From: Planctomycetota bacterium
Lineage (GTDB): Bacteria; Planctomycetota; Planctomycetia; Pirellulales; Pirellulaceae
DNA: 64,000 nucleotides
Reading direction: 5' to 3'
Assembly: GCA_029979005.1 (NCBI GenBank)
Contig: JAPOIJ010000004.1
Location: 1 to 64,000 of the forward strand
Position numbers and translations under genes: made by a program. Position 1 is the stretch's first letter. Every line of letters begins with the position of its first letter. The notes beneath the pieces were generated by a model, which worked only from the letters and a program-made list of their open reading frames with translations, did no database searches and was not told where the DNA came from. Of this stretch, positions 29,674 through 37,860 are shown in pieces.

Positions 29674-31872
29674 TTATTCCTTCCAGCCCAACACATCTCG
29701 CAGGATGCACCAACGCGGCGTTGGCAAAGAGCTATCGATTCCAAGAATCCAGTAATCGTACAATCGCTTGTAGGTTCCATCCGCTTTCTTTAACGCCAGC
29801 CAGTTTTGCAAAAACTTCTCAAATGCAAAATCGCTCGCCGTCAAATAATAAATCGGAATCTGGACTTCACCTTGAAGCGGATTGGTAACCGCAAAATGCG
29901 GTCTCATCATTGTCCAAGCTGAACCGGACTCTGCACTAATCACAAGGCCACCGACTTCCGCATAGCGACCGTCAAAATATTCACTGGCCGAATTTAACTG
30001 GACGATCTCAAACTCAGTCGGAACCAAGCGTTCTACCCGGTCCGCAAAAAAACTATCTTCGATTACGGCTAATTTTAAATCTGGAATCTTTAAGATGGCC
30101 TCTTTCGAGCGGAATTCGCTTTTTCTGTGATCAGGCACGACGACGGCAAGAGTGACATCCATATACGGCAGGCTGGCCGGCATTTTAATCGCTTGCTCAA
30201 TCGTTCCCTCAAGGGCAGACATCGCAATGTCGATTTTACCGGTGTCTAGCTGCAACTGTAATTCACCCTTCTTTATCGGGACAAATTCGAGATTAACCTT
30301 GAGATCGTCGGCGAGGTAATGAGCCATGTCGATATCGAAACCGACGAGCGAACCGTCGGCATTAGCATAAGCGAATGGCATCTTCCCCGGCTCAAAACCA
30401 ATGCGCAATGAACCGCGTGCCTGGATAATTTCCAATCGACGCTTTCCAATCGAATCGATATCCGTCACCCCACTCGCAACCGCAGTGATCTGCGAACTGA
30501 CACCTGAATCTACCCTGTCATTGAAAAAGACGAGTTGCCGTTCCGACACCAAGTCCCCGCGAGAATAATGTTCTTTAAAACTCACATCGAGATAGCTTCT
30601 AATAAGAACTGCATTCAACGTCAGTAAAAGGCAAGAAACCACCGTCGCCATTACCAGCTTGCGAAAATCCCAACGCACACTCCCATTAATCCAGCAACCA
30701 ACAATCACGGTGAACGCAACCAGATGAGTTGCTTTCATCAGATCACCAAATCTCGCGGCAATCACCCCCGATGCCAAAAATAAATTAAAAATATCACTTG
30801 GGAGTTCTGCCACATCCAGCAGTAAGGGAATTGTGATCACCGGCTTGCCAAATGAGCCAAGTAGACCAACTCCGGCAAGCATTGGATAACGATCCAGATC
30901 AATCGAACTTCCGTAAAACCAGGCGGCAAATGGAATAAAAACCAATCCTAAGATGCGGCCGACATCTGGGAATGGATAAGCCAAAGGGACGAGATATTCG
31001 GGTTGCGAGCTCGAAAGGGCATCCAAGGTATCCGATCGGCTGTCTTGCAGTTTCTTCACCGCTTCGACAATCATCGGCAACACTACAAACGAGTTTCCAA
31101 TGACGAATGCGGCAATCAGCGGATCCCGCAATGCAGTTATCAACTCACCAAACCGATAAGGCGTAACTGCCGCAATCAAAAGAGGAAGAACTACAAAACA
31201 GAGAACAACCGAAGCTCCCGCGTAAGTGAAAATATAACCTTGTATTAAACTAAGTTGGTCCAAGTTGATAGTGCCAGCGGTATAAGCAACGATTGCAAAC
31301 ATTCCGACAGGCGTCATCCTTACCACCAACTTGTTTAGCCTCCCTAAAGCATCAACGGCAACGTCCAATGGATCCAATAACAGAGACTTATTTGGTAACG
31401 CCATGATCGCCACCCCAAGCCCTAGAGAAAAAACAACCACGGCAGGAATTGCGTTGTTAGCAAGCGAACTGAATGGGTTTGAGGGAATAAACAACTCAAG
31501 CCAGTCCTGGGAAGGCGGCGCTTCATTAAAACTACTACTATAAAACGACCCTGTTTCCCACATTGGAAATGCTTGAACCGAAATGGCCAGTGCAATGAGA
31601 CTAACCATCCATAACGCACACAGCACGGCCGACGAAATACGTAATAACTTCCACCCCGTTTCAGCAGATAAGCGGCCGACATTTACAATCAATGAGGCGG
31701 CGACGAAAGGCAATACTGCCATCTGCAACAATCCAACAAATGCATCCCCCACCCATTTAATCCACTCAATAGATTCCCCAAAAAACAATCCGCAAATTAA
31801 ACCAAGCAACAATGAAATCACAATCTTTGTTGTGAACCCCACCGATCCACGCTGCTTCGCATTCTCAATCAT
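29674..31872 (-). CDS. SDF-family symporter fused to a periplasmic solute-binding domain
   Basis: The protein (about 732 residues) joins two transport modules. The first 420 residues are a dicarboxylate/amino-acid:cation symporter (SDF/GltP fold): GLLQMAVLPFVAASLIVNVG, NPFSSLANNAIPAVVVFSLGLG, MTPVGMFAIVAYTAGT and the hairpin region SFGKPVITIPLLLD. After a last TM (about 395-420) and a linker comes a family-3 solute-binding domain (about 490-705: LRIGFEPGKMPFAYANADGSLVGFDIDMAHYLADDL, KIDIAMSALEGT, FLQNWLALKKADGTYKRLYDYWI). The receptor may feed substrate directly to the symporter. I prefer the ATG at 31872 (MIENAKQRG, with AAGG upstream) over the track start at 31938. No ABC subunits are nearby. 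Confidence 0.9.
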   Translation of the reverse strand: MIENAKQRGSVGFTTKIVISLLLGLICGLFFGESIEWIKWVGDAFVGLLQMAVLPFVAASLIVNVGRLSAETGWKLLRISSAVLCALWMVSLIALAISVQAFPMWETGSFYSSSFNEAPPSQDWLELFIPSNPFSSLANNAIPAVVVFSLGLGVAIMALPNKSLLLDPLDVAVDALGRLNKLVVRMTPVGMFAIVAYTAGTINLDQLSLIQGYIFTYAGASVVLCFVVLPLLIAAVTPYRFGELITALRDPLIAAFVIGNSFVVLPMIVEAVKKLQDSRSDTLDALSSSQPEYLVPLAYPFPDVGRILGLVFIPFAAWFYGSSIDLDRYPMLAGVGLLGSFGKPVITIPLLLDVAELPSDIFNLFLASGVIAARFGDLMKATHLVAFTVIVGCWINGSVRWDFRKLVMATVVSCLLLTLNAVLIRSYLDVSFKEHYSRGDLVSERQLVFFNDRVDSGVSSQITAVASGVTDIDSIGKRRLEIIQARGSLRIGFEPGKMPFAYANADGSLVGFDIDMAHYLADDLKVNLEFVPIKKGELQLQLDTGKIDIAMSALEGTIEQAIKMPASLPYMDVTLAVVVPDHRKSEFRSKEAILKIPDLKLAVIEDSFFADRVERLVPTEFEIVQLNSASEYFDGRYAEVGGLVISAESGSAWTMMRPHFAVTNPLQGEVQIPIYYLTASDFAFEKFLQNWLALKKADGTYKRLYDYWILGIDSSLPTPRWCILRDVLGWKE

Positions 31873-33928: not shown

Positions 33929-35986
33929 GTGCAGTTTAAAAAAACCACTTACAGCCTATTATTGGTTTTGCTCTCGATATTGTGCGGCACCACAACTTGC
34001 ATAATACCATCGGACGCACTCGGCCAAAATCCCGACGAAAAAGTCAGGCTATTGCTGCCAATGGGGCCGCACCAAGACGCAGGCACGAGTTCCTCCAATG
34101 AACGAACTTCCGCCCCTCCTTCAATCGCGTTGGAACTGAATTCTACGAACTATTTTCAGATTCCAATTGAAACTGTGCTCCCCCACGTTCTCCCGCTAGG
34201 TCAACCGTTCATCAATTCAAAATTCGACTCCCGACCGAGTGCTTACCCGCTGAATCCGTCAGCAACCTACGTTTTTCCAATGACCGCCGAGCATCCGTTG
34301 AAAGAGATTCCCAAACGGGACGTACCTCATGGCACTTTGAAAATTAGCAATCTAGGTCATTTGCAGCCAAGGCTTCCCATCAAAGATCCCAATCTTAAAG
34401 TTGCAAGTTTTCAGGAGCCTGCCGAAAAATCAAAACAAGAGACATCGAACAAGAAAGACGAATCGCCTCAACTGGTTGCCACCGAACCTTCACTTGGCGA
34501 ATTAGCGGAACGAATCCAGGGACGCATTGAGCTCATCAATTCCAATGACACTCTCGATGCCGCAGCCAAAGAAGAAGAACTCACTCAACTGAATCTTGCC
34601 AATCAAATTGTGAAAGAAGCCTTGGCGATTCAAAAAGAGATCACGGATGAAGAAAAACGCAAAGAAACTTTCTCTCTCGATCTTAAGAAACTACAAGAAC
34701 AACTCAGTAAGAGTCCCGCACTAAATCCCCCTGGCTCAGATCTCAACTCAAAACAAATTGAAACCGTTTTAAAACAAAAAAAACAAAAGCGAGATGAGCT
34801 CAAATCGAAACAATCGATTATTGAGGACAAAATTGACGAATTGGCTACTCAAATGGCTACCAATCCGACGCTGAAAACAGAGATCCTCAAGGAATTAAAA
34901 GAAACAAAAGAGAAGTTCCTAGAAAGCCAGGCTACCGCGAATAACGAAGATGCTCGCCTAATTTTTGATGCCAAAAAATTAAAATCAAACAAACAGCTAG
35001 TCAAAATCGGCCTCGACACAATCAAGCAAGAACAATTAGGCGTACTTTTCCCTATTCAAAAACAGATCATTCAACGCGACATTAAAAACCTTGAATCAGA
35101 AATTTCATTATGGCAAACGAAGTTTAACCAACTTCAGAGTTTAGAAATCTCGCTTCAACAAGCACAGGCAAAACAAGCAAGCGTTCAAGCAATTCAAACT
35201 GACAAAACACTTGCCAAAATTGCTGAAGAAAACCAAAAAATCACACAACTAAGAAGCAACATTGCATTAGACATCGAAGAGTGCAATGAAAAATTCACCG
35301 CCGCGGATCAAGAATACGAAGAAATCAACACGGACCTCGAAAGCATCAAAGATAAAATTGAGATGCCAGGTGGCAACCGGCAAGATCGGGGAATCGAGCT
35401 TGTTAAGCTAAGCCGGAATCTCATGCATACTTTTGAGAGCCAAACCAGAATTGATTTAATTAATGAGGAATTACGAAACTGTCAGCTTAATGAACTAAAC
35501 CTAAAAGCCAAGCTTCGCGTACTCGCCAAACGAGAGTCACAAATCAATCGCCTCTTAGACGAGCGTGCAAAGTCCGGAGAGAATGGAAGCGATAGTTTAT
35601 CAACTGCTGAATTTACAAGCCTTGCAAATGAACTCCTAGACAAACAGCACAAGTATTCATCCGACCTACTACTTGATTACCAAAAATTACGGAACGGTCT
35701 TGTTCATGAGCGCGAACGGTTAATCCAACTAATCAACAAGGTCAATGAAGCCAGAGAGTACTCAGCGAAAAATGCATTATGGGTTCGCAGTGCAAATCCA
35801 ATGTCATTTTCAGATTTCAAAAGCGCTTGGACATCGGTTCAATTATTTTTTTCACCCCAACAGTGGCTTGATCTGGGCACCATTGTTTCCACTAACATTA
35901 AAAAGAGACCATACGGAACTCTGTTTGCCGGTTTTTTGATATTGTGTGCCTTTGTATTTTCGAGGCGATTGCGAGGTGATGTGTGA
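33929..35986 (+). CDS. MscK/MscM-like periplasmic coiled-coil subunit (N-terminal half of split channel)
   Basis: The 685-residue protein has an export signal (YSLLLVLLSILCGTTTCIIPSDALG), a polar region to about 165 and a long coiled coil (about 185-610) rich in Gln, Lys, Glu and Leu, like the MscS_porin domain of large MscS-family channels. The end (WVRSANPMSFSDFKSAWTSVQLFFSPQQWLDLG, then KKRPYGTLFAGFLILCAFVFSRRLR) resembles the segment before and including the first inner-membrane helix of MscK/MscM. The protein stops at that point, and the next gene supplies the rest of the channel, overlapping by 4 nt (GTGA). The start is GTG 33929. This looks like a channel encoded by two genes. Confidence 0.75.
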   Translation: MQFKKTTYSLLLVLLSILCGTTTCIIPSDALGQNPDEKVRLLLPMGPHQDAGTSSSNERTSAPPSIALELNSTNYFQIPIETVLPHVLPLGQPFINSKFDSRPSAYPLNPSATYVFPMTAEHPLKEIPKRDVPHGTLKISNLGHLQPRLPIKDPNLKVASFQEPAEKSKQETSNKKDESPQLVATEPSLGELAERIQGRIELINSNDTLDAAAKEEELTQLNLANQIVKEALAIQKEITDEEKRKETFSLDLKKLQEQLSKSPALNPPGSDLNSKQIETVLKQKKQKRDELKSKQSIIEDKIDELATQMATNPTLKTEILKELKETKEKFLESQATANNEDARLIFDAKKLKSNKQLVKIGLDTIKQEQLGVLFPIQKQIIQRDIKNLESEISLWQTKFNQLQSLEISLQQAQAKQASVQAIQTDKTLAKIAEENQKITQLRSNIALDIEECNEKFTAADQEYEEINTDLESIKDKIEMPGGNRQDRGIELVKLSRNLMHTFESQTRIDLINEELRNCQLNELNLKAKLRVLAKRESQINRLLDERAKSGENGSDSLSTAEFTSLANELLDKQHKYSSDLLLDYQKLRNGLVHERERLIQLINKVNEAREYSAKNALWVRSANPMSFSDFKSAWTSVQLFFSPQQWLDLGTIVSTNIKKRPYGTLFAGFLILCAFVFSRRLRGDV

Positions 35987-37860
35987 ACCCACCTCTACCG
36001 CATAACCCTCAGACCGATGACGACAACGATCTCCCCACCCAGGACGAACTCGTGGATCAGTTGCAACGATCCGACGATAACAAAACGGGGCCGGACAAGG
36101 CACTTCGGGAGAACATTGAAAAATTTTCCCGCTACAGTCCGGTTTACAAGGCAGTCACTGCCACAATCCTCCGCGCGACCATCGCACCGGCGATTGTCGT
36201 ATTCCTTGCTTATCAACTTAGTCCAAGCGAAGAAATCACCTCATTAGCCGGATCCGTTTCTCGAAGTCTTTGGATTCTCTGCCCGCCCCTCTTCGCCTGC
36301 ATGATTCTCGTCCAAGCCCTGCGAACCGAAGGCCTCGCCGAGCGCTGCTTTGGGTGGTCGACCGAGCTTTGCCACGGGCTTTACTGCTTAGTCAAGACAA
36401 TCATCTTTGGATGGCTCCCGCTTAGATTCCTCTACACCAGCTTGGAGACGTTTGATGGTTCACCGATGGTTGCCTCGCCCACTCCGGGAATTTGGAGCGA
36501 CTCGCTGGGAAGATTGTTGTTCGTGGCTTCGATGATCATTTTCACAATCGGACTGCGGACAACGTCGAAAAAGCTGAGACACTGGTCCGCTTCTCGCGTG
36601 ATATCGAAAAATTGGTTGCACGATATTCGCCAACTCAATTATAGGTGCCTTCCACTCATCCCAATTGGTCTAGCTCTTCTTTCAATAATTGGCTTTCAGT
36701 TTACAGCCATTCAGATGAGTTGGCGGATGCTGTGGACAGCAATCTTCATCATTGGAATATCGATCGTCGGCGGACTTTTTAGTCATCTGATGCTGATAGC
36801 GCAATTCAGAATTAAGCTACGCCAATTAAGCCGGGATGAGCAAGGAGAAATTAACAGCGGCGAGTCAATTGATATCACGGAAATTTCAACGCAGGTCAAC
36901 CGGCTTTTAAGGGCAACTGCTACCGTGGCCATGATCTTAATTGGTTGGCACTTTTTCGCTGACGTCCTCCCGGTCATTGACTATCTAGACGATTGGCAGT
37001 TGCCCTGGGCCTCGACTGACGCCGACGGCGTAAAAGAATCCGTCACGCTGCGGCACGCTTTAATCGCATTCGGATTGGCAATCATTACTTTAATTTTAAG
37101 CCGAAATTTACCAGGGCTTTTAGAAATCACACTTCTCGATCGCCTCCCACTGGATCGGGGCGGGCGGTACGCGATTTCTTTTATCTTGCGATATTTTGTA
37201 GGTGTCGTGGGGTTGATCACAGCTTGCCAAATCATCGGCTTCAATTGGTCAAGCGTGCAATGGCTGGCGGCAGGTTTGACGGTTGGCCTCGGATTCGGCT
37301 TACAAGAAATATTTTCCAACGTAATTTCAGGAATTATTATCCTGATTGAACGACCGATTCGCTTAGGTGACGTGGTAACCGTGAACGGAGTGACCGGTAC
37401 GGTAACTCGCATCCAACTGCGAGCAACAACAATCAAAGATTTTGATTTTCGTGAACTTATCGTTCCTAATAAACGATTCATCACAGACGACATTATGAAC
37501 TGGACGCTTACAGACCGAAGGTCCCGAATCGTCTTGAGAGTAGGCGTCGCGTATGGCTCTGACACCCAACTGGTCCACGACACCCTACTAACCGTGGCGA
37601 GGCGGCACCCACTTGTCCAAACGGAACCATCACCCGACGTGTTTTTTAAAGAATTTGGAGATAGTACGCTGAACTTTGATCTTCGAGTATTCATTCCCTC
37701 CCGCGACATTTTCGCGCAGGTGCAACATGAACTCAATGTTGCGATCGAAGCAGAATTCAAGCGAAAACAAATTGAAATCGCATTCCCGCAACGAGACATC
37801 TACATCAAGAACCTAAGCGATCAACAGGTCTTAACGCCTGACGAAAAGAAATCTGCTTAG
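35983..37860 (+). CDS. MscS-family mechanosensitive channel (C-terminal half of MscK/MscM-like protein)
   Basis: The 625-residue protein starts at GTG, overlapping the previous stop. A polar leader of about 60 residues is followed by about 9-11 TMs. GLAERCFGWS after an early TM is a landmark of the MscK/MscM group. The pore and beta domain are clear: WLAAGLTVGLGFGLQEIFSNVISGIIILIERPIRLGDVVTVNGVTGTV, RATTIKDFDFRELIVPNKRF, then the alpha/beta C-terminal domain to about 610. It releases solutes when membrane tension rises. Alone, the protein lacks the periplasmic coiled coil, which the upstream gene provides. The 272-aa antisense ORF at 36981..37799 is a shadow. Confidence 0.92.
   Translation: MNPPLPHNPQTDDDNDLPTQDELVDQLQRSDDNKTGPDKALRENIEKFSRYSPVYKAVTATILRATIAPAIVVFLAYQLSPSEEITSLAGSVSRSLWILCPPLFACMILVQALRTEGLAERCFGWSTELCHGLYCLVKTIIFGWLPLRFLYTSLETFDGSPMVASPTPGIWSDSLGRLLFVASMIIFTIGLRTTSKKLRHWSASRVISKNWLHDIRQLNYRCLPLIPIGLALLSIIGFQFTAIQMSWRMLWTAIFIIGISIVGGLFSHLMLIAQFRIKLRQLSRDEQGEINSGESIDITEISTQVNRLLRATATVAMILIGWHFFADVLPVIDYLDDWQLPWASTDADGVKESVTLRHALIAFGLAIITLILSRNLPGLLEITLLDRLPLDRGGRYAISFILRYFVGVVGLITACQIIGFNWSSVQWLAAGLTVGLGFGLQEIFSNVISGIIILIERPIRLGDVVTVNGVTGTVTRIQLRATTIKDFDFRELIVPNKRFITDDIMNWTLTDRRSRIVLRVGVAYGSDTQLVHDTLLTVARRHPLVQTEPSPDVFFKEFGDSTLNFDLRVFIPSRDIFAQVQHELNVAIEAEFKRKQIEIAFPQRDIYIKNLSDQQVLTPDEKKSA

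Follow-up and report, generated by a model that had tools for sequence, protein, structure and literature searches.

A planctomycete protein family joining an SDF-type membrane domain to a family-3 solute-binding domain: a possible binding-protein-dependent transporter

The fusion gene, its topology and its surroundings

The window, a 64,000-nucleotide stretch of a Pirellulaceae contig (JAPOIJ010000004.1, positions 1 to 64,000), contains on its minus strand an uninterrupted open reading frame (29674–31872) that starts with an ATG at 31872, ends with a stop codon at 29674–29676 and has no internal stops. Pfam analyses of the 732-residue product identified an SDF domain at residues 14–391 (PF00375; E-value 9.4e-45, 153.7–156 bits, cut-off 27.9), with the match spanning positions 2–384 of 387 and hence nearly the whole length of the profile, and an SBP_bac_3 domain at residues 489–709 (PF00497; E-value 1.3e-21, 77.2 bits, cut-off 26.4). 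These were the sole Pfam matches of the protein; TRAP, TTT, TAXI and GltS domains were not found, and no cytoplasmic output domain was matched. The best solved relatives of the first half were SDF aspartate/glutamate carriers and those of the receptor half were ancestral or modern cyclohexadienyl dehydratases (CDT) and family-3 solute-binding proteins (SBPs). A sequence-only reading of this DNA had proposed that a symporter-like part and a receptor form one chain, and this was borne out by the single frame and both Pfam domains, at exact coordinates.

Pfam, profile alignment to canonical SDF proteins and hydropathy together delimited an SDF-fold membrane domain at residues 12–397 (30682–31839; this and all other parts of the gene are on the minus strand), comprising TM1–TM8 with HP1 and HP2. 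Family-averaged hydropathy and counts of lysine and arginine residues in 39 members followed the SDF pattern through TM8. Classical SDF chains terminate in the cytoplasm after TM8, as established for GltPh, and the canonical SDF paralogue encoded in the same genome stops 25 residues past the TM8 aspartate. The fusions, in contrast, had a further strong hydrophobic segment at approximately residues 408–425, following a K/R-rich loop, which we interpreted as an extra ninth membrane helix (TM9; residues 406–428, 30589–30657) that is predicted to lead the chain outside. Residues 429–732, including the receptor, would then most likely be extracytoplasmic, as the sequence-only reading had supposed, and a cytoplasmic receptor is not favoured because TM9 comes after TM8. 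An AlphaFold2 model built with five close sequences, too shallow an alignment, had a mean pLDDT of only 33 and was discarded.

The remainder of the chain consists of a fast-evolving linker (residues 429–478, 30439–30588), which was recognized from dN/dS and segment conservation, the SBP_bac_3 receptor domain (residues 479–710, 29743–30438), as delimited by Pfam and the solved relatives, and a C-terminal tail (residues 711–732, 29677–29742). The tail, identified by dN/dS comparison and segment conservation, contains a conserved RWxxxRxVLxW-type motif past the Pfam domain that was present in nearly all members, including the homologue in Halioglobus.

None of the genes neighboring the fusion was conserved across lineages. 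Based on this, the fusion chain looks like a complete unit, with no separate output protein apparent. In the window the adjoining gene, transcribed divergently from the fusion, encodes a sulfatase (PF00884; 32107–33627, plus strand), and the same neighbor was seen in three close relatives. In several other lineages, too, a sulfatase gene lies no more than three genes from the fusion; as most of these genomes have tens of sulfatases, this association is uninformative and perhaps due to chance. In two distant lineages the fusion adjoins a gene for a Porin_O_P outer-membrane porin (L071:5080-6930 and L081:6365-7957), a weak hint that the cargo of the fusion may be anionic. Also in the window, at 33929–37860 on the plus strand, a gene for a large coiled-coil-like protein with no Pfam match overlaps by four bases a gene for an MscS-type mechanosensitive channel (MscS_TM domain). 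This pair looks like an MscK/MscM-type channel split in two.

Distribution and linkage of the two halves

Full-length homologues of the fusion in one frame were identified at 95, 85, 82, 80, 63, 60, 57, 56, 46, 40, 39, 34 and 34% identity, the nearest named contigs being those of Mariniblastus sp. and Pirellulaceae metagenome-assembled genomes. The same full-length frame was open in four single-contig genomes (G065, G066, G476 and G335). In an evenly drawn sample of 392 planctomycete genomes the fusion was present in 23, which represent 9 of the 267 genera. Its distribution outside the Planctomycetota rests on two gammaproteobacterial records of a plasmid collection: a full-length homologue from Halioglobus pacificus (38.5% identity) and another, also full length (32% identity), on a replicon of Pseudoalteromonas xiamenensis, where it is annotated as one CDS. 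Both have the SDF and SBP_bac_3 domains by Pfam. No relatives of the fusion were found in the viral contigs searched.

The sequence-only reading had raised the concern that a sequencing error might have joined two genes. As independent genomes share the open frame, at identities as low as approximately 34%, and the Pseudoalteromonas homologue is annotated as a single CDS, a frameshift or assembly join was ruled out.

Within its genus the fusion is patchy, with around eleven of 28 genomes having the gene and one more (L017; G018:C176:221-643) having a broken remnant, with only residues 1–142 left and an in-frame stop codon. This decayed remnant indicates that some species can do without the gene. 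One of the single-contig genomes, G476, has two fusion paralogues of different subgroups (one at L060, G476:C1:912316-914466), which may correspond to two substrates.

Each half of the fusion was given its own profile (A3, membrane; A4, receptor), and the same 392 planctomycete genomes were scanned with both at E-values up to 1e-25. The two profiles matched the same 23 genomes, with the halves adjacent in one frame except at contig ends, and neither a free membrane half nor a free receptor half was found in these searches. Canonical SDF proteins scored at most 68 bits with the A3 profile versus at least 388 bits for every fusion, so that, for close relatives, the lack of free halves is not an effect of the threshold. 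Most supported clades were common to the trees of the two halves, the deep order of which was blurred by long branches. Comparisons with four relatives gave dN/dS values of 0.06–0.09 for residues 1–430 and of 0.08–0.11 for the receptor, with the linker evolving faster. Both halves of the fusion are under purifying selection.

Altered residues in the membrane core and the receptor

Profile–profile alignment of the 39 fusions to canonical SDF proteins (probability 99.7%, 332 columns) confirmed that the membrane half is related to this family, and paired the three characteristic motifs of canonical carriers with different sequences in the fusions. In the HP1 tip (residues 259–266, 31075–31098) the serine-rich ASSSATLP of canonical proteins (SSS...LP) is replaced by GNSFVVLP. 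The TM7 motif NMDGT aligned with PDVGR, within PFPDVGR (residues 300–306, 30955–30975), and the TM8 motif DMMRTL with DLMKAT, within RFGDLMKATHL (residues 374–384, 30721–30753), the TM8 register being that of the profile alignment plus an extension by a few residues. Residue counts showed that none of the 39 members has an Asn or Asp at the positions equivalent to GltPh N310, D312, N401 or D405. In TM7, P302 and G305 are invariant (39/39) and position 306, which corresponds to T314, is R or K in 35 of 39. In TM8, the D394 equivalent is retained as D in 33 of 39 and the R397 equivalent is K or R in 23 of 39; the N401 position has become L, I or F and the D405 position T, A, S or V in every member.

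The Na1, Na2 and Na3 sites of GltPh and its substrate come together at the NMD motif (PMC12668577). The genome of the window also has one canonical SDF protein, which scores 408 bits to the Pfam profile compared to the 153.7–156 bits of the fusion, and which retains both NMDGT and the TM8 D..R...N...D motif. From these replacements we infer that GltPh-type sodium coupling has been lost in the fusion, and since the residues concerned are absent in 39/39 members, cation symport cannot be deduced from the family name. The sequence-only reading had called this part a GltP-like symporter; the relationship to SDF proteins held up, but the label itself is not supported, the sodium and substrate residues of GltPh-type carriers being missing.

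The altered core is itself strongly conserved. TM7 is the most conserved segment of the fusion protein (mean pairwise identity 0.62), and the family has its own invariant residues (F312, F315, W318, G321, F341, P349 and P358) and a conserved new core, PFPxxG[R/K] and FIPFAAWFxG. This conservation of TM7 indicates that the residues of the membrane half have been replaced, rather than decayed, and that this part is being maintained. A degenerate pseudo-transporter is not favoured given this conservation and the low dN/dS.

Changes were also found in the ligand pocket of the receptor. In HisJ, GlnH and other family-3 binding proteins, the alpha-carboxylate of the amino acid is bound by an Arg and its alpha-amino group by an Asp. 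The Arg position is R in 23 of 39 members and Q in the protein of the window. At S646-A647-E648 (29929–29937), counts in the 39 members and alignment to the solved relatives showed that the usual ligand Asp is replaced by Ser in the window's protein and by S, T or A in all members, and that the Glu two residues on, E648, is invariant. This combination of a variable Arg position, an S/T/A at the Asp position and an invariant Glu makes an ordinary alpha-amino acid a doubtful ligand. Our guess is that the ligand may be an organic anion.

A candidate receptor-dependent transporter and its alternatives

SDF carriers, such as GltPh and the human EAATs, are textbook elevator transporters that work without a binding protein. 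The sequence-only reading had remarked that binding-protein dependence is unusual for such carriers, and in agreement with this the SDF elevator fold is absent from the SBP-dependent secondary families described in the open literature searched, which are TRAP, TTT and, since 2025, TAXI-GltS (PMC12344293). Elevator-type secondary transporters are the known partners of SBPs, and TAXI-GltS (Bordetella BP0403/GltS and the Lachnospiraceae TAXI-GltS fusions), for which glutamate binding has been measured, is the nearest precedent for the SBP–carrier chain described here (PMC12344293). Both have an SBP and an elevator-type secondary carrier in one chain, outside TRAP and TTT. They differ in that TAXI-GltS has a GltS carrier with an N-terminal TAXI receptor, whereas the fusion has an SDF carrier with a C-terminal SBP_bac_3 receptor. 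Binding-protein-dependent secondary transport would be the principle shared with TRAP and TTT systems, although the fusion has no TRAP or TTT domain. Relative to the SDF/DAACS carriers (GltPh, GltTk, GltP and DctA; PF00375, TC 2.A.23), the membrane fold is homologous, but NMDGT, the HP1 serines and the N401/D405 equivalents are lost, HP2 is shortened, and TM9 and a covalent receptor are added. Similarly, the receptor has by sequence the same fold as the family-3 SBPs of ABC importers (HisJ, GlnH, AncCDT-1), but differs from them in the replacement of the ligand Asp by S/T/A, the invariant E648, the extra conserved tail and its attachment to a carrier, with no ABC importer.

Based on these data, we consider the odds to be somewhat in favor of the fusion being a self-contained binding-protein-dependent secondary transporter, in which the receptor would capture a solute and hand it over to a rebuilt elevator core. 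The membrane half would be an elevator carrier of diverged SDF (DAACS) type, presumably a trimer, with TM9 carrying the chain to the periplasm and one tethered Venus-flytrap receptor per protomer. On catching its small solute, which is probably an organic anion, the receptor would close and pass it to the elevator domain. If affinity and selectivity come from the receptor, the carrier could dispense with its classical sites for substrate and Na+, and the family-specific core, namely PFPxxG[R/K] and FIPFAAWFxG in TM7 and R..D in TM8, could take their place. GltPh-like Na+ coupling would not be expected, and proton coupling or facilitated flux appears more likely. The conserved fusion, the constant pairing of its halves in 392 genomes, the dN/dS values, the conservation of the TM7 core, TM9 and the lack of conserved neighbors tip the balance slightly toward this reading, to which the TAXI-GltS fusions are a direct analogue (PMC12344293). 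The patchy distribution and the degraded remnant within the genus count against it. In addition, every substrate or sodium residue of canonical carriers that was examined is altered, so transport is not to be assumed.

That same loss of classical transport residues would suit a sensor or "transceptor", in which the receptor binds its ligand outside and the SDF-like part, rather than transporting, controls a leak of ions or relays a signal to a cytoplasmic partner. BvgS-type kinases and ligand-gated channels do use family-3 binding domains as sensors. However, there is neither a Pfam-detectable cytoplasmic output domain nor a conserved neighboring gene, and the whole elevator core has been kept, with TM7 its best conserved segment; we regard a sensor as unlikely, though it is the foremost of the alternatives. 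Somewhat less probable still is a transporter that is merely regulated by its receptor, with the receptor gating the carrier and the cargo binding directly to the rebuilt core instead of being delivered. The altered core has highly conserved residues of its own, among them the R or K that occupies the position of T314 in 35 of 39 members, and may be able to bind cargo alone, but the sequence holds nothing that separates gating from delivery.

Automatic annotation would make the fusion an ordinary Na+- or H+-coupled dicarboxylate/glutamate symporter of the GltP/DctA type with an accessory receptor. This agrees with the Pfam SDF match and with the RefSeq name of the Pseudoalteromonas homologue, "cation:dicarboxylase symporter family transporter", but we think it very improbable as NMDGT and the counterparts of N401 and D405 are absent from all 39 members, while the canonical SDF protein of the same genome keeps them. 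Lastly, the CDT sequences among the best solved relatives could suggest that the receptor half is a membrane-anchored, cyclohexadienyl-dehydratase-like enzyme. AncCDT-1, its best solved match, is a reconstructed binder of amino acids rather than an enzyme, and the invariant E648 lies, in an ungapped stretch, one column off the Glu of AncCDT-5, which would be the catalytic Glu of PheC-type enzymes. Anchoring an enzyme would moreover not call for an SDF domain of eight helices, and we give this reading almost no credence.

Returning to the favored receptor-dependent transporter, we found no description of a fusion of an SDF domain to a family-3 SBP in the open-access literature searched. The RefSeq-named homologue shows that such sequences are already in databases, with their architecture passing without comment. 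By descent the fusion belongs to the SDF superfamily; it lacks the residues by which classical carriers are recognized, and its mode of action may be SBP dependent. Conservation of the pairing across many planctomycetes points to a type of receptor-dependent transporter that is undescribed in the literature searched. We put at a little short of an even chance that the family is an undescribed class of secondary transporter, SBP dependent and based on the SDF elevator fold, in which a covalent receptor has supplanted the substrate and sodium sites of the carrier.

This family also provides an SDF core that is still strongly conserved although NMDGT and two TM8 residues of the sodium sites, an Asn and an Asp, have been lost. 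The TAXI-GltS authors suggested that the elevator mechanism may permit partnership with binding proteins and that more classes are needed as a test (PMC12344293). If truly SBP dependent, the fusion family would provide a test of that partnership in the best-understood elevator fold.
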